Positions 4,133 to 16,808 of a stretch of DNA of 35,536 nt are shown here, piece after piece (position 1 is the stretch's first letter; each line of letters begins with the position of its first letter). A program made the position numbers and the translations under genes. Below the pieces are notes generated by a model, which saw nothing but the letters and a program-made list of their open reading frames with translations, was not told the DNA's origin and did no database searches. Source of the stretch: a virus; IMG/VR virus record IMGVR_UViG_3300045974_000426, positions 1 to 35,536 of that record. One strand, written 5' to 3'.

Positions 4133-5479
4133 ATGAACAGAATGCAGGTAAAGCAACTACCCATCGATGCCGTCAAGCCCTATCCGGGTAACCCACGCAT
4201 CAACGACAAGGCAATCGACCCTGTCGCCGCCTCCATCAAAGAGTTCGGATTTCAACAGCCCATCGTAGTCGACAGTGAGAACGTTGTCATCGTAGGCCAC
4301 ACCCGCCTACTGGCTGCCAAGCGCCTTGGACTGACTGAGGTGCCGGTGGTGGTGGCCGACGACCTGACCCCCGACCAAGCTAAGGCCTACCGCCTGGCCG
4401 ACAACCGGACCAACCAGAACGCCGAGTGGGACTGGAGCCTGCTAGGTGAGGAGCTGCAGGGTCTACTTGAGGACTGCCCTGACCTGGTGCCACCCACCGG
4501 GTTTGATGCTGAAGAGATCAAGAAGGCCCTGCACTTCGACGACGGAACCCACATTCGAGACTACACCCCTCGAGACAAGGAAGACCCACTGTCGGCCTAT
4601 GGAGATGTATGGACCTCAACCGACGGCGAACACATCGTCGTCTGCAGCGAGAACAACCAGCAGCTGGCCACAGACCTCATCAAGAAGAACCCCATCGACT
4701 GCATCTGGACGGACCCACCGTACAACCTGGGGCTAAGCGGTGTTGGTGGCAAGGTCCACAACGACACCTTTGCAAGTGACACCGAGTTTACCAGCTTCCT
4801 GACCTCCTGCTTCAAGGAGGCCATCGCTGCACTTCCAGCAGGCTGCTTCGTGTTTAGCTGTGGTGTTCATGGCTCCTACATTCCAAACCGAGCTGCACTT
4901 GAGGGGCTTGGAATGCAGCTAAAGCACCAACTTGTCTGGGTCAAGCCACCCTCCTACACTATGAATGGGACCTTCGCGAAGTCCCATGAGGTCATCTGGT
5001 TGTTCCAGAAGCCAGGGTCGAGACACATCAACAACACCGCCCAGAACCCGCGTGAAGAACACGACGAGCTCCTTATCCCCCACGAGCACCTGGAGAAGAA
5101 GTCGAAGAACGAGCTGCTCGACTACGTCCAGAAGCTCACCGCGTCAATGGACACGCAGCGCACCACCCGAGAGCACGACAGGTGGGCCGACCACCCGACC
5201 GTGAAGCCGTCAAGTCTTATCAAGCAGCACCTGAGTCGCGTCACCTACCCTGGAGACCGGGTACTTGACATCTTCGGTGGAAGCGGCAGCACCGCGGTTA
5301 CCTGCTTTAGCATGGGTCGAAAGAGCCTGACGTTTGAACTTGACCCAGGCTACGTCGATGTGACGCTGACCCGCCTCTACGAGAACTACCAGTGCGACTT
5401 CACCAACCAAGCCGGTGTGAAGTGGTCAGACATCTGGGAACCCGAGAAGAAGCGTCGGGAGTCACTCGATGCTGCCTGA
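4133..5479 (+). CDS. ParB/Srx-like domain fused to a DNA methyltransferase
   Basis: The 448-aa protein has two parts. Residues 5-130 form a ParB-like nuclease/Srx domain: IDAVKPYPGNPR at 11-22, then VIVGHTRLLAAKRLG at 52-66 and the ADNRTNQN block. Residues about 155-430 are an S-adenosylmethionine-dependent DNA methyltransferase with DPPY (194-197) as catalytic motif IV and FGGSGST (381-387) as motif I; this IV-before-I order is that of beta-class N6-adenine/N4-cytosine enzymes. ParB-methyltransferase fusions are common in phages and are thought to modify phage DNA against host restriction. ATG 4142 is a possible alternative start. It is placed just before the terminase genes, and its short coupled neighbour starts inside its last codons. 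Confidence 0.93.
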   Translation: MNRMQVKQLPIDAVKPYPGNPRINDKAIDPVAASIKEFGFQQPIVVDSENVVIVGHTRLLAAKRLGLTEVPVVVADDLTPDQAKAYRLADNRTNQNAEWDWSLLGEELQGLLEDCPDLVPPTGFDAEEIKKALHFDDGTHIRDYTPRDKEDPLSAYGDVWTSTDGEHIVVCSENNQQLATDLIKKNPIDCIWTDPPYNLGLSGVGGKVHNDTFASDTEFTSFLTSCFKEAIAALPAGCFVFSCGVHGSYIPNRAALEGLGMQLKHQLVWVKPPSYTMNGTFAKSHEVIWLFQKPGSRHINNTAQNPREEHDELLIPHEHLEKKSKNELLDYVQKLTASMDTQRTTREHDRWADHPTVKPSSLIKQHLSRVTYPGDRVLDIFGGSGSTAVTCFSMGRKSLTFELDPGYVDVTLTRLYENYQCDFTNQAGVKWSDIWEPEKKRRESLDAA

Positions 5480-6093: not shown

Positions 6094-7498
6094 CTGGTCA
6101 CTTGAGGAGGTCGTTGCCGAGCTAAGTCGACGGCAGAGCGTAGGGGGATGGAGCACCAGGTACTTCAACACCCCTGATACCCGGCTCAAGTATCCCAAGC
6201 ACTGGGAGTACTTCGATGCGGGAGCAACTCATGGCACCCGTCTCTTTACCGCCGGAAATCAAGTTGGTAAATCCCTGTCCTCTGCCTGTGAGCTCGTCAT
6301 GCACCTCACTGGGGACTACCACCCGGACTGGAGAGGTCGCCGCTTTGATGGCCCAGTCAACGTCTGGAATGTAGGCAGAACCGCTGAGCTTGTCCGTCAG
6401 ACCATCCAACCCTTGCTGCTTGGGCAGGTCAACGCCTTTGGGACCGGGCTCATCCCCAAGGACAAGCTCGACCTCGGCACCCTCACCGACGCCAAGCGCG
6501 CCTCGACCCCAATCAACGCCTTCCGGGTCCTCAGCAGGAACGGTGGCTACAGCACGGTCGCCCTGAAGTCAGGTGAGCAGGGTCGTGAGGCATTTCAGGC
6601 GGCTACGCTGGACATCGTCTGGGTGGACGAGGAGATCCCCTTCGACGTCTTCAACGAGTGCCAAGTCCGGTTGCTTGTTCGCAACGGCATCATGATGTAC
6701 TCATTCACTCCACTGAAGGGCACGACTGAGGTCATCCAGTCGTTCAGCGTCGATGGGACGTTCGTTGAGGGCGACGTTGGCAGTGGTCGCTACGTGGTGC
6801 GCTGCTCCATGTATGACGTGCCTCACCTCTCCACGGAGATGATCGACAAACTCGCAGTAACGACACCGCCCTTCCTGCGAGATGCACGTATCTACGGTAT
6901 CCCATCCCTTGGTGCCGGCGCGATCTACCCAGTCCCTGAGAGCGACTTCGTCATCGAGCCCCAGCCCATTCCCAAGCACTGGACCCGCTGCTATGGGATG
7001 GACGTCGGGAACAAAACAGCTGCGGTCTGGCTTGCCATCGACCCAGATGGCGGCGAGATCTGGACCTACGCCGAGTACTACCGAGAAGGCGCTGAGCCCT
7101 CCATCCACACCGCCGGCATCAAAGCCAAGGGCGACTGGATCCCAGGCGCCATCGACCCGGCCGCCAACGCCGGCTCACAGAAGGACGGAGAGAAACTGAA
7201 GGAGCTCTACGTCGACCTCGGGCTTGACCTCGTAAACGCCGTCAACGCGGTTGAAGCTGGGCTCTACACCATCTGGGAGATGCTCTCGACCGGTCGCCTG
7301 AAGGTGTTCAGCTCCTGCACCGGTCTCTTGAAGGACATCAAGGGCTACCAGCGGGATGAGAAAGGCAAGGTCAAGAAAGAGAACGACCACCGTGCCGACG
7401 CCTGGCGCTACGCCGTGATGACGAGAGACATCGCGATCACTCAGCATGCGCTAAATAAAGCATTCACCGGGCGCCCAACCGCGAGACCGGTATTCTAA
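6083..7498 (+). CDS. Terminase large subunit (packaging ATPase/nuclease)
   Basis: The motor that pumps DNA into the prohead and cuts the concatemer. Walker A is TAGNQVGKS (residues 56-64 from this start) and Walker B is DIVWVDEE. The RNase H-like nuclease part shows GMDVGNKTAAVWLAIDPD, then GAIDPAAN, and the final acidic motif DHRADAWRYA. The TTG at 6083 is preferred because GGAG stands 7 bases upstream; an in-frame ATG at 6050 without a ribosome-binding site would add 11 residues. It overlaps the small subunit gene and is followed after 9 bases by the portal gene. With P22-like head genes, headful packaging is expected. Confidence 0.93.
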   Translation: MVADWSLEEVVAELSRRQSVGGWSTRYFNTPDTRLKYPKHWEYFDAGATHGTRLFTAGNQVGKSLSSACELVMHLTGDYHPDWRGRRFDGPVNVWNVGRTAELVRQTIQPLLLGQVNAFGTGLIPKDKLDLGTLTDAKRASTPINAFRVLSRNGGYSTVALKSGEQGREAFQAATLDIVWVDEEIPFDVFNECQVRLLVRNGIMMYSFTPLKGTTEVIQSFSVDGTFVEGDVGSGRYVVRCSMYDVPHLSTEMIDKLAVTTPPFLRDARIYGIPSLGAGAIYPVPESDFVIEPQPIPKHWTRCYGMDVGNKTAAVWLAIDPDGGEIWTYAEYYREGAEPSIHTAGIKAKGDWIPGAIDPAANAGSQKDGEKLKELYVDLGLDLVNAVNAVEAGLYTIWEMLSTGRLKVFSSCTGLLKDIKGYQRDEKGKVKKENDHRADAWRYAVMTRDIAITQHALNKAFTGRPTARPVF

Positions 7499-7507
7499 AG
7501 GACACCC

Positions 7508-9661
7508 ATGGACGTTACCCTCTCCTCCTCCGATGCGAACCTGTCCGACGAGGACCTCATCAAGGTCGCCTTGGAGCAGTTCGACCATGCAAGTTCCGCC
7601 TGTCGCGAGCACCGGCAGCTTGCACGTCAGGACCTGGACTTCCTCGCCGGGAACCAACTTCCCGGGAACAACCAAGACCCCTACGCCCTGAAGGTAAACC
7701 TCCTGACGCCGTTCGTCCAGCAGGTCATCGCCGAGGCGCAGCAGAAAAACGCCGCCATCAAGGTGGTCTGCAACGGCGATGGAGCCGACGAGGAGATCGC
7801 CGAGGTCCGTGGTGGCATCGTGCGCGACATCGAGGACAAGTCCGATGCCAAAACAGCGTACAACACGGCGATCTTCTACGCGACAGCCGCGGGTGAAGGT
7901 TACCTCCTGCTCACCGGGGAGTACGTCAAGGAGGATGGGTTCGACCAAGACCTGCGCATCAAGGGCGTCTTCAACCCCGAGATGATCTTCCTGGACCCAG
8001 CCCACGAGGACCTGACGGGTGAAGATGCCGAGTTTGGGTTCATCATCAAGGACGTCCCGACCTCGGTGTTCCGTCGGCAGTACCCGAAGTCGAAGCTGGA
8101 GGACATGCTTCAAGGACGCGGGTTCAACCGGCTCAGTCTGCCCAACGCCTGGGTGAACGAGCACACCATTCGGGTCGCCGAGTACTGGCGCAAGGTCTTG
8201 ACCCCGACGAAGCTGTACCTCTGTCAAGACCTCCTGGACCCGATGAAGCCCGACGTCACCCTGGACACGAAGCCCGACCCTCTGCAGCACGTCGTCAAGA
8301 AAGTCCGGAACTCGTTCAAGACGACCATCAAGGCACACACCCTGACCGCCTTCGAGGTCCTGGACACGATGGAGTGGCCAGGCACCCGTCTCCCGATCTT
8401 CAAGGTCAGCGGCGAGACGTTCTACGTGGGTGGTCAACGCCAGATCCGCGGTGCCATTCGCTCGATGATCGACGCGCAGCGCCAGTACAACTTCGCCGTC
8501 AGCAAGCAGATGGAGATGCTGGACCAAGCACCGAAGAACTCCTGGGTGATGACGAAGAAGCAGCTCGGCGACGGTGACGACGCCACGAACTGGGCGAACA
8601 GCAACGTGCTGAACATCTCAGTGCTGACCTACACCGCCGACAGCTCAGCACCACCTCCGTTCCGGTCGCCAGGGTTGAACATGGAGAGCTTCACCGCCCT
8701 TGCCAACGCCCGAGACCAGTCCTACAGCGCCCTACAGCTCGTGACCGGCTTGAACCCATCCAGCTTCGGTCAGAACCCACAAGACCTCAGCGGCGTCGCC
8801 CAACAAGGTCAGGTCGAGCAAGGTTCCCGCAGCACCTTCATCTACATCGACCACTTCTTTACCACCCTACGCGCCCTTGGTCGAGAGATCAACCACCTCA
8901 TCCCGACGTTCTACGACACCGACCGGGTGCAGCGCATCGTGAAGTCCAACGAAGAGGAGCAGATCGTCCAGTTGAACTCCCCAAGCAATGACTACCGGTA
9001 CGACCTCTCGAAAGGGGACTACACCGTCAGCATCAGCACCGGCCCGGCGTTTGCCTCGAAGCGGGAGGAGGGCTTCAACGCGATCATGCAGATCCTGTCC
9101 GCCCTGCCCGAGAACATGCGCCCGAACGTCGCCGACCTGGTGGCATCTCAGGTCGAGAGCCCAATCTCGAAGGACGTTGCCGCCCGCTTCAAGGCGTTGC
9201 TGCCACCTGCTGTACTCGCCGCCACCGAGACGGGCGACACCGACCTGGCACCACGCGCCCAGGTGCAGGCTCTGAAGGGCCAGCTCGCGCAGGCGATGCA
9301 AGCCGGTGAGCAGCAAGGCATGAAGCTGCAGGAGCTTGAGCTTGAGAACAAGACCCTAAAGGACCAGTCCGCGCTTGAGCTGACGAAGGCGGACATGACG
9401 CACACCGAGAAGATGGCGCAGCTGAAGCTGGATGACCAAGTCGCCGAGGTCGAGGCACACCTGACGGTGATGAAGCTGCAGCTCGAACACGAGAAGTTAG
9501 CTCTTGCTCGACAGGAGCTGGAGATGAAGTCCCTGCTGGCCGCACATGAGGTCAATGAAGCCGGCAAGCCCGAGAAGGAACTAACCTCGGAGGACCTCGA
9601 TATCTCGCTGAGTGGTATTGACATGCCAAACACCACAGATATCGGTGGAAAGCTGGATTGA
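7508..9661 (+). CDS. Portal protein (P22 gp1-like)
   Basis: The 717-aa protein matches the P22-type portal family in size and pattern: an N-terminal RQDLDFLAGNQL segment, the LKVNLLTPFVQQVIAEAQQK block at about 60-80, and GVFNPEMIFLDPAHEDLTGEDA around 150-175. Portals form the dodecameric ring at one head vertex through which DNA enters and leaves and to which the tail adaptor binds. The C-terminal ~130 residues are a long charged coiled coil (LKLQELELENKTLK and after), analogous to the helical barrel of P22 portal. AAAGGA 6 bases upstream supports ATG 7508. Confidence 0.92.
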   Translation: MDVTLSSSDANLSDEDLIKVALEQFDHASSACREHRQLARQDLDFLAGNQLPGNNQDPYALKVNLLTPFVQQVIAEAQQKNAAIKVVCNGDGADEEIAEVRGGIVRDIEDKSDAKTAYNTAIFYATAAGEGYLLLTGEYVKEDGFDQDLRIKGVFNPEMIFLDPAHEDLTGEDAEFGFIIKDVPTSVFRRQYPKSKLEDMLQGRGFNRLSLPNAWVNEHTIRVAEYWRKVLTPTKLYLCQDLLDPMKPDVTLDTKPDPLQHVVKKVRNSFKTTIKAHTLTAFEVLDTMEWPGTRLPIFKVSGETFYVGGQRQIRGAIRSMIDAQRQYNFAVSKQMEMLDQAPKNSWVMTKKQLGDGDDATNWANSNVLNISVLTYTADSSAPPPFRSPGLNMESFTALANARDQSYSALQLVTGLNPSSFGQNPQDLSGVAQQGQVEQGSRSTFIYIDHFFTTLRALGREINHLIPTFYDTDRVQRIVKSNEEEQIVQLNSPSNDYRYDLSKGDYTVSISTGPAFASKREEGFNAIMQILSALPENMRPNVADLVASQVESPISKDVAARFKALLPPAVLAATETGDTDLAPRAQVQALKGQLAQAMQAGEQQGMKLQELELENKTLKDQSALELTKADMTHTEKMAQLKLDDQVAEVEAHLTVMKLQLEHEKLALARQELEMKSLLAAHEVNEAGKPEKELTSEDLDISLSGIDMPNTTDIGGKLD

Positions 9662-10538: not shown

Positions 10539-11813
10539 ATGGCAGCCCCATCAAGCATTCTGAAGGTCCTCGGAGACGTTACGTTTTCCAGCGCCGAATA
10601 CCTGTACAACATCAACGGTCTTCTGCCCCGCGTCAACCGCGACTATGACAGCCGCTTCGGCAAGACCGGCGCCAAGATCGGTGCGATCACCAACGCCCGC
10701 CTGCCTGGTCAGTTCAACGGCACCACGAACCTCTCAAGCTCACAGTTCGAAGGTCAAGCCCTGACGGACAAGACCGTGCCGGTCGCCCTGACGGACAACT
10801 ACAAGCAGCACATGTTCCTCGACATGGTCGACTTGAACCTGTCGGTCGACGACTTCATGGTTCGCTACGGCCAACCGGCAATGCGTCGGATGTCCGCTGA
10901 GATCACGCAGCGTGGCTTCACGAAGCTGATGCAGTACACCCCGAACGCCGTTGGCACCCCAGGCACCGCGATCACCAGCAACGCCGGCTTCCAAGGTCTG
11001 ATCGGCTCCGCCCGTCAGGTCCTCACGGAAAACCTGGCACCGATGGGTGAGCAGTGGGCGATGGCTACGCCGCCTTCGTTCGAGAACCTCGGCTACACCT
11101 ACACGACCAACCAGTTCAACCCACAGGTGTTGATCTCCGACATCCAGAAGTCCGGACACATCTCCGGCTTCAGCGGTATGGACTGGTTCGTGACGACGCA
11201 GCCCTTGGTTACCGCCGCATCCACCTACGGTGGCACCCCGCGCGTCAACGGCGCATCGCAGGCGGGCTCCTCGCTGATCACCGACAGCTGGACCGCAACG
11301 ACCACGACCCTCGCAGTCGGCACGGTGTTCACCATCGCCGGTGTCAACGCCGTCAACCCTGAGACCAAGCAGGACCTCGGCTACGCCAAGCAGTTCAGCG
11401 TGACCGCCGCTACCGTTACCGACGGCGCTGGCAACTCCACGGTCGCGATCTCTCCTGAGATCATCGCTCCTGGTGACCCGCGTTCGAACATCTCCATCGC
11501 CATCCCGGACAACGCCCTCATCACGGTGCTCGGCGCCACGGGTACGACCGGCAAGACCGGTCTGGCCTTCGCCAAGGACGCCATCATCTTCGCAACGGCT
11601 GACATCTCCCCATCGGGTGCCGGTCAAGTTGGCGGTGGTGCTTCCAACGGCGGTGCTGACTTCTTCGTCGCCTCGCTGCCGGAACTCGGCCTCTCCGTGT
11701 ACTGCGCCCTGCAGTTCGACATCGACACCCGTGCGTACAAGCTGCGTTACGACGTGCTCGGCGGTTGGGCTCCCCTGTACCCACAGCTGGCCACCAAGGT
11801 CTACTACGGTTGA
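10539..11813 (+). CDS. Major capsid protein (P22 gp5-like, HK97 fold with I-domain)
   Basis: The 424-aa protein follows the P22 coat pattern: LPRVNRDYDSRFGKTGAKIG near residues 29-48, then TVPVALTDNYKQHMFLD and a later TIAGVNAVNPETKQD block that matches the beta-barrel I-domain inserted in P22 coat protein. About 420 copies of such a protein would build a T=7 head. AAGGAG precedes ATG 10539 and a strong hairpin terminator follows at 11820, as expected for the most abundant late product. Confidence 0.93.
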   Translation: MAAPSSILKVLGDVTFSSAEYLYNINGLLPRVNRDYDSRFGKTGAKIGAITNARLPGQFNGTTNLSSSQFEGQALTDKTVPVALTDNYKQHMFLDMVDLNLSVDDFMVRYGQPAMRRMSAEITQRGFTKLMQYTPNAVGTPGTAITSNAGFQGLIGSARQVLTENLAPMGEQWAMATPPSFENLGYTYTTNQFNPQVLISDIQKSGHISGFSGMDWFVTTQPLVTAASTYGGTPRVNGASQAGSSLITDSWTATTTTLAVGTVFTIAGVNAVNPETKQDLGYAKQFSVTAATVTDGAGNSTVAISPEIIAPGDPRSNISIAIPDNALITVLGATGTTGKTGLAFAKDAIIFATADISPSGAGQVGGGASNGGADFFVASLPELGLSVYCALQFDIDTRAYKLRYDVLGGWAPLYPQLATKVYYG

Positions 11814-11838: not shown

Positions 11839-11868
11839 GCCTAACCTGTTCACACATAAGGAAACATC

Positions 11869-12081
11869 ATGAGCACATTCACCACGCAGTCCTCACAGAC
11901 CAGCACTCCATCCACCGTTACGACCGCGAACTTCCAGTTCGTTGGTCCTGACATCATGGTCGCCTCGTCTACCGGCAACATCGGGTTCTTCGGCACCACC
12001 CCGGTCCTGAAGCCAACCGGCGTTACCGACCTCGCCACTCTCCTGGCAGCCCTGACCGCCCTCGGTCTGATCTCGGCTTAA
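11869..12081 (+). CDS. Small head-associated protein, 70 aa
   Basis: The protein is rich in Ser/Thr at its start and ends PVLKPTGVTDLATLLAALTALGLISA, a helix-like tail seen in small head-fibre or decoration-type proteins of phages. TAAGGA precedes ATG 11869. It lies directly after the coat gene and between two hairpins, so it is expressed with head genes. A decoration role is inference. Confidence 0.65.
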   Translation: MSTFTTQSSQTSTPSTVTTANFQFVGPDIMVASSTGNIGFFGTTPVLKPTGVTDLATLLAALTALGLISA

Positions 12082-12160: not shown

Positions 12161-13249
12161 ATGGCTACCATTCAGTCCATCACAGCCGCCGCCCTACGCA
12201 AGTTGAACGTCATCGGGGTCAATGAGGTCCCGACCGCCGTCGACGTCGAGCAGGCGCAGGAGCGACTGAACGCCCTGTTAGACAGCCGGTCTAACGAGTT
12301 GACGAATATCTTCAAGCGGGTTCCACTGGTGTTCCTGTTTGAGAACAACCAGTACAGCTACAACCTTGGTCCGACGGGTGACTGGGTAACTGAGCGCCCG
12401 ATGAGACTTGAGCTCAGCCGGGTCTTGCTCTCACCGGACATCGTGACGTCACCAACCGCTAACTTCACCTCGACCCGTACCGACCTGACCATTGCATTCG
12501 TTGATGCAAGCACCTTTAACCCAACAAGTTGGCTCTGGGACTTCGGCGACGGCTCGACCTCCACCACTCAAGACCCAACGCACACCTACGCCACTGCGGG
12601 TAACTACCTCGTCTCGCTGACGGTCGCAAACTCCGCAGGTACGGACACCAAGCTCTGGTATGTGCAGCCAGCCGACCCACCGGTCGTCGGGCTCTGGCAG
12701 TACAACGGGACCGCCGCCACGATGCAGTACGCCTCCGCCTATGGGGCATTTACCGACGTTGCCGGTGAGTTCGACAGCACTGCGCTGCCCACCGGCGGTG
12801 TGCTTTATGCACCGAACCTGGCGTACATCAACCAAGCTGACTTCCCACACAGCGGTTGGGTTCAGAACGGCGCGACCTTCAAGACCACCACCACCTGGGA
12901 TGACGACGGCACCAGTCGGGCATTCGAGATGAAGCTCCTGCAGACCCCGACGGCTTGGTGTCAAGCAGGTATCTTCATCCAGTCCTACGGTCCGCCCTAC
13001 GACCCGAACACCATGGCTGGCGGACCTCTGTCGTCCTACCTCGCGACCGACCAGTACACCGCCGCGGTCTACGGCTACGGTGGTGTGCAGTCTACCCTAC
13101 CTCCGCTGGTCGCCGGTGACGTCGTCGGGGTCGTAAACTCCAGCTACTCCGTGCAGTTCTACGTAAACGGGGTCTATGTGAGCAACTCGAACACCTCGAA
13201 CAACATCGGGTTCGTGCCGATGTGTGGCGTCGGCACCTACGCCTACTAA
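12161..13249 (+). CDS. Tail-adaptor N-half (gp4-like) fused to PKD and SPRY-like domains
   Basis: Residues 1-94 match the N-terminal half of the intact adaptor encoded at 14042: MATIQSITAAALRKLNVIG versus MTIQSIITGALRQLNVIG, and NLGPTGDW versus TLGPGGDW. At the point where the intact copy continues with a loop (YPAIGGDGSIG), this protein switches to a PKD domain (97-164; WLWDFGDGS, HTYATAGNYLVSLTV) and then to a SPRY/lectin-like beta domain (about 177-362; AGDVVGVVNSSYSVQFYVNG). The C-half of the adaptor is in the next gene. GGAGAG precedes ATG 12161; an upstream ATG at 12116 falls in the hairpin and is rejected. It probably sits in the neck ring and exposes the extra domains; binding to sugars or host surface is inferred. 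Confidence 0.85.
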   Translation: MATIQSITAAALRKLNVIGVNEVPTAVDVEQAQERLNALLDSRSNELTNIFKRVPLVFLFENNQYSYNLGPTGDWVTERPMRLELSRVLLSPDIVTSPTANFTSTRTDLTIAFVDASTFNPTSWLWDFGDGSTSTTQDPTHTYATAGNYLVSLTVANSAGTDTKLWYVQPADPPVVGLWQYNGTAATMQYASAYGAFTDVAGEFDSTALPTGGVLYAPNLAYINQADFPHSGWVQNGATFKTTTTWDDDGTSRAFEMKLLQTPTAWCQAGIFIQSYGPPYDPNTMAGGPLSSYLATDQYTAAVYGYGGVQSTLPPLVAGDVVGVVNSSYSVQFYVNGVYVSNSNTSNNIGFVPMCGVGTYAY

Positions 13250-13258
13250 GGAGACACG

Positions 13259-14032
13259 ATGAGCACACCAGGTGTACCAACCGCCGCGTTCCTCACACCA
13301 GCTACTTGTCGAGTTGGTGATGTAGTCCAGCTCCTGAACACCACCACCGTGAACGAGAACTACACCGCCACGTATGTCTGGACGTTTAGCGATGGAACGA
13401 CCTCGACTGCAACTGAGCCCGTCAAGGTCGCGACGACGCCCGGAGTTCTCACGATCATGCTGCGCGCAGCAGGACCTATCGGGACCACCGACGCCCTCCA
13501 TCAAGTCACGATCAGACCAAACACGAACACCCGAGCCGGGTCCATCGGCGAAGGTACGGTGAGCATCAACATCGAGACCGTCAACGACGAGCAGTACGCC
13601 GGCATCCCACAGCGAGGTGTCACCAACGCCATCCCTCAGGTGATGCTCGACAACGGCGGGTACCCGAACCGACAGCTGTTGTTCTGGCCCATCCCAACGG
13701 ACCGCACGGTAGGTGTCGAGCTCTGGTGCTGGGAGCCCCTTGGGGTCTACACCTCACCCACCGAGGAGCTGAACCTACCACGTGGCTATGAGCGCTGGTT
13801 GACCTACACCCTCGCCCTTGAGCTCAGCGACCTGTTCGGCAAGCCACCTTCGGCGGACATCATTGCCAGCCAGGCGGAGGCTGAAGAGGCCCTACAGTCC
13901 ATCAACCGAGTTGCCTTGACGACACCCGCCTCCGACCTCGCCTTGTCCCTGAACAGCACAGGCACGGTGTACAACAAGATCGACTTCCTTTCTGGGGCGT
14001 GGTTGCTCAGTCCACGCGCCAAGACACGATAA
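13259..14032 (+). CDS. PKD-like domain fused to tail-adaptor C-half (gp4-like)
   Basis: Residues about 7-87 form a second, degenerate PKD-like domain (YVWTFSDGTTST). From residue 93 the protein matches the C-terminal half of the intact adaptor: AGSIGEGTVS aligns with DGSIGQTSST, FWPIPTDRTVGVELWCWEPL with LWPVPQNAFAIELWLWAPL, and ELNLPRGYERW with DLNLPKGYERY. It is in the same reading frame as the previous gene, separated by one TAA and three codons, but has its own AGGAGA ribosome-binding site. The two products together contain one complete adaptor fold plus the inserted domains. Confidence 0.83.
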   Translation: MSTPGVPTAAFLTPATCRVGDVVQLLNTTTVNENYTATYVWTFSDGTTSTATEPVKVATTPGVLTIMLRAAGPIGTTDALHQVTIRPNTNTRAGSIGEGTVSINIETVNDEQYAGIPQRGVTNAIPQVMLDNGGYPNRQLLFWPIPTDRTVGVELWCWEPLGVYTSPTEELNLPRGYERWLTYTLALELSDLFGKPPSADIIASQAEAEEALQSINRVALTTPASDLALSLNSTGTVYNKIDFLSGAWLLSPRAKTR

Positions 14033-14041
14033 AGGACCAAT

Positions 14042-14794
14042 ATGACCATCCAGTCCATCATCACCGGCGCCCTACGTCAGCTGAACGTCATCGGCGCGTC
14101 TGAGCCACCACAGGCGCAGGACACCGCGATCTGCCTCGAGGCCTTGAACGCCTTGATGGACAGCCTGTCGAACTCCCTGAGCAACATCTTCACCATCACG
14201 CCCCTACGGTTCCTACTCACGGCGAACAAAGAGGCCTACACCTTGGGTCCAGGTGGCGACTGGGACACTCCACGCCCAATGCGCATCGAGACTGCGAACG
14301 TGATGCTCTATCCAGCCATCGGCGGTGACGGCTCCATCGGACAGACCTCCAGCACGCAGTTCTTCGGGTTGAAGCTGGCTAACTACTCCCAGTTCGCCCA
14401 GCAGCCCCTTCGGTTCGTCGGCAGCACTTGGCCCACGATGCTGTACGACGACTGTGCCTACCCGCTGCGCACCGTTCGGCTCTGGCCGGTTCCCCAGAAT
14501 GCGTTCGCCATCGAGCTCTGGCTATGGGCACCTCTGAGCACCTACACCGACCTCACGGCGGACCTGAACCTCCCAAAGGGCTATGAGCGGTACCTCACGT
14601 TGAAGCTCGCCGTTGAGGTCGCACCTGAGTTCGGCAAGCAGGTCTCAGACACCACACGCGCCAACCTCGAGCAGGCGGAGACGGCTATCAAGACGTTGAA
14701 CAAACAGACCCAGGTCGTGACGCCGTCCGATGCCGGGCTTAGCTTAACCGGACGAGCACTGCGCCGGCCGGCACTCTACCCAAGGGGCTACTGA
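14042..14794 (+). CDS. Tail adaptor / head completion protein (P22 gp4-like), intact copy
   Basis: This 250-aa protein is an uninterrupted copy of the fold split across the two preceding genes. It begins MTIQSIITGALRQLNVIG and ends with a tail segment RRPALYPRGY. In P22, gp4 forms a ring below the portal that connects it with the tail machine. AAAGGA precedes ATG 14042, and its stop overlaps the start of the gp10-like gene (TGATG). Confidence 0.87.
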   Translation: MTIQSIITGALRQLNVIGASEPPQAQDTAICLEALNALMDSLSNSLSNIFTITPLRFLLTANKEAYTLGPGGDWDTPRPMRIETANVMLYPAIGGDGSIGQTSSTQFFGLKLANYSQFAQQPLRFVGSTWPTMLYDDCAYPLRTVRLWPVPQNAFAIELWLWAPLSTYTDLTADLNLPKGYERYLTLKLAVEVAPEFGKQVSDTTRANLEQAETAIKTLNKQTQVVTPSDAGLSLTGRALRRPALYPRGY

Positions 14795-16248
14795 TGGAAC
14801 GACTACCACAAGCTGAGTTCCCTTTTATCTCTGGCAGCTATCCCGCCAAGTCACGGGCGTTCGACAACCAGCGCACCCTGAATATGTACGTCGAGGCCTC
14901 CGACGTCGGAGGCGGCAAGAACGCCGCTCCTGGCTACCTGACGGCCTGCGCCGGCCTGCGCCAGGTCCAGTCCTTGGGCAGTGGTCCACACCGCGGGTCG
15001 TACCTGCTCAGCAACGCCTCACGTGCGTTCTTCGTCAGCGGCAATGAGGTGTACTTCCTGACCTCACCTCTCGGCAGCCCGGTGCGCATCACCGGTAACC
15101 TGAACACCTCCGTCGGGTTCGTCAGCATGGTGGACAACGGGACCGACCTGCTCATCGTTGACGGTGCCAACGGGTACTTCGTTGACCTCAGCACCAACGT
15201 CTTGACGACCATCAACGACCCGCACTTCTACAACGGGGCTGTTACCTGCACCTACCTCAGCGGTTACTTCATCTGTGACGAAGGTCCGAACTCGACGTCG
15301 TTCTTCATCGGCACACCCGACAGCACGACTTGGCCGGCCTTGAATGAGTTCAGCGCCGACACCTCGCCCGATGTCATTCGCGCCTTGATCTCCGCAAACC
15401 AGCAGCTGTACGTCCTCGGCTCGAAGACGCTGGAGGTCTGGGCTACGAACTCACAGGCAACGGCGCTCTCCGATGCCTTCACCCCTAACTCCGGTCGGTC
15501 CATCAACATCGGCTGTCAGGCACCTGGCACTGTGCAGCGGGTCGCCAATACGTTCATCTTCCTCGGACAGAACGACCAAGGTGCGGGCGTCGTCTACGCC
15601 CTGGACAGCGACGTGCCGAACCGGGTATCTACCCACGCCATCGAGCACGTCCTCCAACAGGCGGGTGACTTGACCTCAGCCACAGCGGTTGCTTGGCAGG
15701 AGGACGGGCACTACTTCTACGCTCTGCAGGTCCCAACGTTGAACACCACCTTGACGTACGACTTGACGACGAAGACTTGGTTCGACAAGCAGACCCGCTA
15801 CAGCGGAGTGTTTGACCGGTGGGCTGGTCAAACACACTGCTTCCTGAACGGCGTGCACCTCATCGGGGATCGTTCAAGTGGAAACTTGTACCAGCTCGAC
15901 CAGACCTACGACAAAGACGGCGACAGCACCTGCTACCGTGAGCGTCGGACACCACACATCTCGAAGGGCGTCAGTGTCTGCTTCTACACGACGCTACAAG
16001 TCGACATCCAAGCGGGCATCGGGTCACTCACCGAGGACCCAAGACTGACCTTGCGGATCTCTCGTGATGGCGGTGCCACCTACGGCAACCCGGTCTACGC
16101 CTCGATGGGCAAGGTCGGTGAGTACCGCTGGAGAGCTCGATGGAACCGGTTAGGCTATGCACGTGACGCGGTATTCGCCATCGGGTGTGACGGTTTTCAG
16201 CCGGTCTTCTTGGGCGCCTTCCTGGACTACACTGAGGGAACTTCTTGA
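14794..16248 (+). CDS. Packaged DNA stabilisation protein (P22 gp10-like)
   Basis: The 484-aa protein starts LPQAEFPFISGSYPAKSRAF, followed by NQRTLNMYVE, the pattern of the Phage_stabilise family, and has repeated beta-rich blades across its length. In P22, gp10 forms a hexamer that joins the gp4 ring to the tail needle and closes the head after packaging. Order (adaptor, then gp10) is as in P22. No needle (gp26) homologue was recognised next to it. Confidence 0.9.
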   Translation: MERLPQAEFPFISGSYPAKSRAFDNQRTLNMYVEASDVGGGKNAAPGYLTACAGLRQVQSLGSGPHRGSYLLSNASRAFFVSGNEVYFLTSPLGSPVRITGNLNTSVGFVSMVDNGTDLLIVDGANGYFVDLSTNVLTTINDPHFYNGAVTCTYLSGYFICDEGPNSTSFFIGTPDSTTWPALNEFSADTSPDVIRALISANQQLYVLGSKTLEVWATNSQATALSDAFTPNSGRSINIGCQAPGTVQRVANTFIFLGQNDQGAGVVYALDSDVPNRVSTHAIEHVLQQAGDLTSATAVAWQEDGHYFYALQVPTLNTTLTYDLTTKTWFDKQTRYSGVFDRWAGQTHCFLNGVHLIGDRSSGNLYQLDQTYDKDGDSTCYRERRTPHISKGVSVCFYTTLQVDIQAGIGSLTEDPRLTLRISRDGGATYGNPVYASMGKVGEYRWRARWNRLGYARDAVFAIGCDGFQPVFLGAFLDYTEGTS

Positions 16249-16808
16249 GCACCGCACTGACATTGCTGCAGGACCTCACAGGTCTCCCACCGGTCGAGCA
16301 TCGTTCGCTCCACCTGCTTGACATCCCGAAGCGGCTCAGCCGCGAGGAGTTCGACGCCCTTCCAGTCTCACCCGAAGCACTAAATAACCGACTGAAGATT
16401 GAACGCCTTGAGGCCGCCTTGAACGAGCTGCCCGACCACCTGTCTCCGGAGGACGACCCGTTTGAAACTTGGCACGACATTACCGGCAAGGTTTACAACC
16501 GCACCCTGCACCTGCCGCCAGGTACGCTCATCGTCGGCAAGAGACACGCGATTGAGCATGTGTTCATGCTGCTCTTCGGTGAAGCTACCATCATGACGGA
16601 GCGTGGTGTCGAGCACTTCGTCGCACCCTTTACCTTCATCTCTCCGGCGGGTGAGAAACGGGTGATCTTGACCGAGCTTGGCTGCACCATGGTTACCTGC
16701 CACGCCACCACAAAGACAACGCTTGAGGACATTGAGCTCGACGTCATCATGTCCGACGCACCACTACTTGAAGGAGCCGAACATGGCATGGTTTGCAACG
16801 GGGATTAG
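16245..16808 (+). CDS. Cupin-like protein, 187 aa
   Basis: The TTG start overlaps the previous stop (TTGA) and has GAGGGA upstream. Residues 1-75 are helical; from about 82 the sequence has a cupin-like double-stranded beta-helix pattern: GTLIVGKRHAIEHVFMLLFG, then GVEHFVAPFTFISPAG and TELGCTMVTCHAT. Paired histidines (HAIEH, EHF) could bind metal. Proteins of this kind occur in podoviral structural operons without a settled function; a small virion or ejection-related role is inferred from position. Confidence 0.7.
   Translation: MSTALTLLQDLTGLPPVEHRSLHLLDIPKRLSREEFDALPVSPEALNNRLKIERLEAALNELPDHLSPEDDPFETWHDITGKVYNRTLHLPPGTLIVGKRHAIEHVFMLLFGEATIMTERGVEHFVAPFTFISPAGEKRVILTELGCTMVTCHATTKTTLEDIELDVIMSDAPLLEGAEHGMVCNGD

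Follow-up and report, generated by a model that had tools for sequence, protein, structure and literature searches.

A P22-type adaptor gene split at one loop in several phage lineages: candidate chains of one neck-ring subunit

An adaptor ring seals the DNA exit of the phage head and is under tight structural constraint. How, then, does one adaptor come to be encoded by two neighbouring genes that carry added domains, next to a third gene that encodes the same protein whole? This question is raised by the IMG/VR virus record IMGVR_UViG_3300045974_000426, the whole 35,536-nucleotide (nt) stretch of which we call the window. Pfam and PHROG matches to portal, coat and gp10-like genes place the phage among the P22-like podoviruses. 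The adaptor genes, here A, B and C, belong to a P22-type head module, in which they sit between the coat gene and the gp10-like (Hc3) gene, and the same coat–adaptor–gp10 order is kept in relatives. We consider it likely that A and B together supply one adaptor subunit of the P22 gp4 type, each as one of its two chains, and that the dock domain of this subunit has been opened and used as a display scaffold. At the level of sequence, the split, its recurrence and the conserved pairing of the two halves are evident.

One adaptor family divided between two adjacent genes

We compared each half with the intact adaptor C by pairwise alignment. Residues 3-119 of A matched C with 99 bits and 48% identity, and residues 94-231 of B with 101 bits and 39% identity. 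When the halves were joined, SPDI directly to RAGSIGEG, the score against C was 189 bits (46% identity over 235 amino acids [aa], with four gap positions), compared to a best score of 23 bits in 100 shuffles of each half. The family PHROG 12985 covered residues 1-84 of A (profile 1-88), 79-223 of B (profile 76-219) and 1-230 of C (profile 2-222), i.e., A and B are adjacent open reading frames that jointly span one family end to end. The profile coverage and the joined alignment therefore confirm a split adaptor with its break at one loop, which reads YPAIGGDGSIG in C. A preliminary description of this DNA had reported a duplicated adaptor gene, one copy of it interrupted at that loop by PKD, SPRY-like and PKD-like domains; its coordinates, gene order and break position all held, as did the duplication and, with the SPRY-like part resting on moderate fold matches, the domain content.

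To which adaptors is this family related? Against the PDB, a profile of the intact family matched P22 gp4 (E 4e-7), the Pam1 adaptor (E 8e-4) and Sf6 gp7 (E 1e-3). Its helix pairs, at profile positions 3-50 and about 177-210, map to residues 3-52 and 81-114 of P22 gp4, so that the region between the pairs, about 28 residues in gp4, is about 125 residues long here. Beta strands are predicted between the two helix pairs, as for the dock domain of SU10/T7-type adaptors. In the SU10 adaptor, a helix bundle is accompanied by an embracing loop and by a long-tail-fibre dock domain whose dock loops protrude radially; the dock domain, which is absent from the P22 and Sf6 adaptors, sits at the outer face of the dodecameric ring, where it holds the long tail fibres (PMC9509320). 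The Pfam family SU10_adaptor (PF24175) matched B with 21.8 bits, below the gathering cut-off of 27, and gave no match to C.

An AlphaFold2 (AF2) model was made of the A–B read-through chain, with the TAA read as a residue for modelling only and an alignment of intact homologues. The modelled order was helix, helix, three strands, break, strands, helix, helix, so that, within the dock region, strand 3 precedes the break and strand 4 follows it, and the fold matches were to the portal-tail adaptors of A4, GP4, SU10, Sf6, Pam1 and P22. The predicted local distance difference test score (pLDDT) was about 85-95 in the N-half and about 76-95 in the C-half, the inserts were not confident and the overall predicted template modelling score (pTM) was 0.41; this result involves some circularity, since intact adaptors supplied the alignment and the two chains were treated as a single one. 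On this model, the break is inside a dock-like domain of the adaptor.

Recurrence of the split and pairing of the halves

In a recurrence survey, hidden Markov models (HMMs) of the N-half and the C-half were run over all fetched loci of IMG/VR phage lineages (L numbers below). Such a homology search had been proposed as a check in the preliminary description, and it found the same split in several other lineages, every time at the same loop. Four states were seen. Three loci (L102, L106 and L159) had tandem intact copies, and five phages had a split first copy followed by an intact second copy: the window; L003, which is 97-98% identical to it in the nucleotides of these genes and has the same break; and L017, L087 and L099, which repeat the anatomy of the window at 35-50% identity and keep the intact copy 2. 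In L089 and L090 both copies were split and none was intact at the locus, and in L104, L113 and L158+L101 (two contigs of the same metagenome that overlap) one split copy was the only adaptor found between coat and gp10; the contigs of these last two states are fragments of 4-13 kb. A further contig, L103, begins inside a split B, directly before gp10. Sequencing error or an assembly artefact was ruled out by the same break in L003 and by different stops in distant relatives. Among cultured phages, 35 relatives of C were found, those examined having a single unsplit adaptor; five matched B partially and none was split. A bacterial genome search found no relatives.

Locus L090 has further peculiarities. 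Its positions 123-1544 hold three adaptor N-halves against two C-halves in the locus; the N-halves that begin at 123 and 1233 are almost identical over their first ~85 nt, a likeness that recent duplication or gene conversion would leave; and the PKD domain that follows the first N-half is in turn divided by a stop/start overlap, ATGA, at 482-485. Elsewhere, HNH-like endonuclease genes occupy gaps between tandem copies or between adaptor and gp10 (L102:5201-5680 and 6607-7206, judged by eye; L081:5700-6188, annotated 'endonuclease'), and homing endonucleases could therefore have caused duplication or breakage at those loci. No endonuclease domain was present at the break among the Pfam matches of A and B.

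Do both halves remain under selection? Judged by simple counting on two sequences, the window and L003, both A and B show purifying selection: synonymous and nonsynonymous changes numbered 20 and 3 in A, 14 and 2 in B, 14 and 3 in C, and 50 and 7 in the portal gene, with ratios of nonsynonymous to synonymous rates (dN/dS) of 0.05, 0.05, 0.07 and 0.04, respectively. Across split copies, the divergence of the N-half correlated with that of the C-half at r 0.81, compared to 0.83 inside intact adaptors, a mirror-tree correlation that shared descent of linked genes alone would be expected to give. The halves of split copies were conserved as much as the corresponding halves of intact adaptors (50 versus 51% and 45 versus 45%). 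Between L089 and L090, the N-half and C-half of copy 1 were each closest to copy 1 of the other phage, and likewise for copy 2.

The origin of the splits was examined in a tree of 29 rows of joined adaptor halves. The split copy of L017 grouped with the first copies of L102 and L106, which are intact (support 99/93), the split second copies of L089 and L090 grouped with the intact C of the window (96/88), and L113 fell, at an open fork (83/86), in a large group of intact adaptors, most of them single-copy. A single clade for all splits was rejected (approximately unbiased [AU] test, p 1.7e-5), and the best tree required a minimum of six state changes. A common origin restricted to the clade I splits could not be rejected (p 0.067); to be safe, we therefore say that splitting occurred at least twice, or once with subsequent re-joining, and plausibly more often.

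Domains carried at the break

The PKD match in A was above the Pfam cut-off, and the predicted fold of this domain matched PKD1 of PrtV with a template modelling score (TM) of 0.89; the PKD domain of B was found by the same family, PKD_4 (E 9e-8). The third domain of A had no Pfam match of its own. In an AF2 model of A built on a seven-row alignment (pLDDT 70-84 over residues ~290-345), its predicted fold moderately matched the SPRY domains of HERC1 (TM 0.48) and SPRYD7 (TM 0.49) and, again moderately, lectin-like beta-sandwiches (galectins, LamG and CBM66). Since these matches are moderate, the label SPRY/concanavalin-like is fair but not proven.

Relatives hold other domains at the same place, including a 'RNGYDGDVGVSGF' domain, LamG-like domains (called by eye, with no Pfam match) and proline-rich linkers, and each split copy bears a foreign domain on at least one new end. 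The same domain type was found on the N-chain in L017, L087 and L099 and on the C-chain in L089 and L090. A shared RNG(Y/F)xGxVGVxGFI domain lies on the N-chain in L087 (2717-4318), L099 (3825-5468) and L017 (6001-6813), and on the C-chain in L089 (2172-3875) and L090 (1842-2966), which amounts to domain exchange between the two chains.

Conversely, a domain-sized insert at the break loop was absent from all 64 distinct intact adaptor sequences, a set that includes near-identical ones; at this loop, the extra domains are exclusively associated with the chain break. One-chain inserts of about 60-340 residues occurred at another loop, after YTLG, in L080, L118 and L166-L168, i.e., a second, unsplit way of loading the adaptor; such single-chain adaptors lie at L166:5995-7011, L167:5529-6569, L168:607-2424 and L080:4992-5945.

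The features of the window locus are collected in Table 1. Two other genes of the window may be mentioned here. Upstream of the terminase, positions 4133-5479 encode a fusion of ParB-like nuclease and DNA methyltransferase, and after gp10, positions 16245-16808 encode a small cupin-like protein that matches the 'short tail fiber' PHROG 12032 and is conserved in L099, L090 and L101.

Table 1. Adaptor locus of the window and its neighbouring genes.
Feature	Coordinates	Strand	Evidence or remark
Terminase	6050		context gene
P22-type portal protein	7508..9661	+	Pfam P22_portal, E 3e-115
Scaffold-like gene	9729		context gene
P22-type coat protein	10539..11813	+	Pfam P22_CoatProtein, E 1e-27
Gene A: adaptor N-half (aa 1-94: two helices, three strands), PKD (aa 92-163), SPRY/lectin-like (about aa 190-362)	12161..13249	+	
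Adaptor N-half in gene A (helices 1-2, first dock-domain strands), ends at SPDI	12161..12442	+	48% identity to C; PHROG 12985; N-half HMM
PKD (Ig-like) domain, free end of chain A	12434..12649	+	Pfam PKD_4, E 3e-17; fold match
SPRY/concanavalin-like beta-sandwich (fair but not proven), C-terminus of chain A	12674..13246	+	moderate fold matches; homologue in L089 at 38%
A/B junction, TAA-GGAGACACG-ATG; stop of A overlaps Shine-Dalgarno of B	13247..13261	+	
Gene B: PKD (aa 7-84), adaptor C-half (about aa 92-235: dock-domain strands, helices 3-4)	13259..14032	+	
Adaptor C-half in gene B, resumes at RAGSIGEG	13532..13957	+	39% identity to C; C-half HMM
Gene C: intact paralogous gp4-type adaptor, 250 aa; loop YPAIGGDGSIG uninterrupted	14042..14794	+	PHROG 12985, E 9e-34
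gp10-like nozzle/head-closure protein (Hc3), neighbour of adaptor	14794..16248	+	PHROG 578 Hc3, E 3e-93

A ring subunit in two chains, and its alternatives

Since the same cut recurs in relatives, some of them without a whole copy at the locus, the two pieces probably work as one ring part, and the phages without an intact copy at the locus give the strongest support for an A–B subunit that the sequences offer. In the subunit we propose, the adaptor chain would be cut at one dock-domain loop, with helices 1-2 and the first strands in A and the rest, including helices 3-4, in B, and the new ends would carry PKD and SPRY/lectin-like domains or, in relatives, other domains. Coupled translation would make both chains together, and these would fold on each other in the ring. 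The extra domains would project from the neck, where they probably serve weak multivalent binding to the host or surroundings. The tandem paralogue, intact in the window and split in some relatives, would supply the remaining ring subunits or form a further ring. Co-assembly, location in the virion and binding function are parts of this proposal that we infer. The idea of the preliminary description that two polypeptides rebuild one ring subunit thus has strong comparative support from the split-only loci, from purifying selection and from the co-divergence of the halves, and stands as a prediction where physical assembly is concerned. It had also suggested that the ring could be mixed with the intact version; several relatives have no intact copy at the locus for split subunits to mix with.

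Besides the partly circular modelling with its low overall pTM and the correlation expected from shared descent, several points weigh against this proposal. The contigs that carry split copies only are short, and an intact adaptor elsewhere in those genomes is therefore possible. In the window phage, copy C might suffice as the adaptor, with A and B in another role. Lastly, the display or binding role is read from domain type, and the A–B complex and its place in the virion are predicted from sequence.

A different role of the domains, which is a variant of our proposal and overlaps with it in probability, is quite possible, although we lean somewhat away from it. Here, the duplicated adaptor would form its own ring or an alternating 6+6 ring, the split would merely free ends, and the extra domains would serve to reinforce the neck or to hold tail fibres, not to bind the host. 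Fibre holding by the dock domain of SU10 (PMC9509320) speaks for such a role, as do the separate tail collar fibre gene of the window phage (20417-21418) and the maintenance of duplicates in many relatives. However, the kind and number of domains vary widely between phages, which fits binding better than structure.

It is unlikely, in our estimate, that A and B are separate accessory virion proteins in which each half adaptor is a docking module that binds singly to the intact ring or the portal, never forming a joint subunit. The intact C next door in the window, L017, L087 and L099 would suit this explanation, as would the unequal numbers of halves in L090, where pairing is not strictly 1:1. 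It is opposed by the phages without an intact copy at the locus and by the matched divergence and pairing of the halves. Moreover, in the absence of helices 3-4, helices 1-2 would leave half of a helix bundle exposed, and A modelled alone is predicted to be disordered over residues 39-95 (shallow alignment).

Could A and B instead form one long chain, through stop read-through, frameshift, RNA splicing or a split intein, and thus a single adaptor with inserted domains? In the window, the two genes do share a frame across a single TAA. However, the sequence between them, TAA-GGAGACACG-ATG, means that B starts at a good Shine-Dalgarno site; A has its own ribosome-binding site (RBS), GGAG, upstream of the ATG at 12161. 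All 10 junctions examined had a stop/start overlap (TAATG/TGATG or ATGA) or an RBS within 12 nt, with spacings of -4 to +12 nt, so that the chains are, on sequence, probably translationally coupled. The frame relation between N- and C-chain genes varied among phages (0, +1 or +2), as did the stop (TAA, TGA or TAG), which excludes conserved read-through, and joining of A and B by read-through or frameshift was rejected since the frame differs among phages. An Rfam scan of the window gave no RNA intron or other structured RNA, the Pfam profiles of A and B gave PKD and adaptor only, with no Hint-type intein, and 0/64 intact adaptors had a one-chain domain at the break loop. Taken with the strong RBS before B, this leaves a single chain very improbable. 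A tRNA-linked insertion was also considered, and no tRNA was found. The 21-nt start regions of the gene at 11869 (TAAGGAAACATCATGAGCACA; window 11857-11877) and of gene B (TAAGGAGACACGATGAGCACA; 13247-13267) are 86% alike; the translation start of B may have been copied from the former gene, or the likeness may be chance.

Finally, a decaying duplicate, i.e., a tandem adaptor pseudogene broken by insertion and soon lost, is suggested by the intact paralogue and by the tandem duplications common in the group (L102, L106 and L159), but it is scarcely credible and the pseudogene reading was rejected, given a dN/dS of about 0.05 in both halves, conservation over large divergence, an RBS or overlap at the junction, and several phages with split copies only.

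How does the proposed subunit compare with known systems? With P22 gp4 and Sf6 gp7 (PHROG 12985, Ad3-type) the genes share their position between the coat and gp10-like genes and the motifs of helices 1-2 and 3-4, and differ in the longer region between the helix pairs, the two chains and the added domains. With the SU10/T7/KP32 adaptors (PF24175) they share a beta dock domain between the helix pairs; the A–B model matches SU10 adaptor chains, and the Pfam match of B to that family is the weak one given above. SU10 gp11, however, is one chain holding separate fibre proteins (PMC9509320), whereas here the domains are fused to the cut ends of the dock domain. Phage genes in pieces are another known case: in Aeh1 nrdA, T4 topoisomerase gp60/39 and phage 25 gp43A/B, enzymes are split, usually by a homing endonuclease or else by an untranslated spacer, between neighbouring genes whose products reassemble (PMC2988022). 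Here too one ancestral protein comes from two neighbouring genes, and reassembly is probable; in contrast, the protein is a structural ring component, the break holds no endonuclease, extra domains sit at the new ends, and the split recurs in several lineages at one loop. Lactococcal 936 phages carry a neck passage structure with carbohydrate-binding modules (PMC6669499). Putative sugar-binding accessory domains at the neck would be common to both, whereas that structure is a separate single-chain collar protein of siphophages, with no split adaptor subunit. In SPP1 MTP and 936 TpeX, programmed frameshifts add Ig-like or CBM extensions to structural proteins (PMC6669499); there too, Ig-like or binding domains are an optional part of a virion protein, but they are C-terminal extensions on a fraction of the copies, whereas here the core fold is cut and both ends are loaded. 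Phage enzymes in pieces and sugar-binding neck decoration are hence known already. In the open-licence papers covered, we found no description of a split head-tail adaptor, nor one of a structural ring subunit that was repeatedly split and bears display domains.

The adaptor ring thus appears to be two-chain in several lineages, having been split repeatedly, in every case at the same loop and together with extra domains. For a broader generalization we see the chances as evenly balanced: cutting the neck-ring subunit at the fibre-dock loop may be a recurrent P22-like route to a two-chain display scaffold, in which the new ends take interchangeable Ig-like or lectin-like domains, both paralogues are convertible, and decoration is changed by swapping one short gene while the packing core stays untouched. 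Whether halves make a working ring in phages without an intact copy has become a directly testable question. If our proposal is true, 'PKD-domain hypothetical proteins' encoded before gp10 genes may be half adaptors, which would guide the reading of other genomes, the phage neck would bear a naturally occurring system for split-protein display, and genes in pieces would have a rare structural counterpart.
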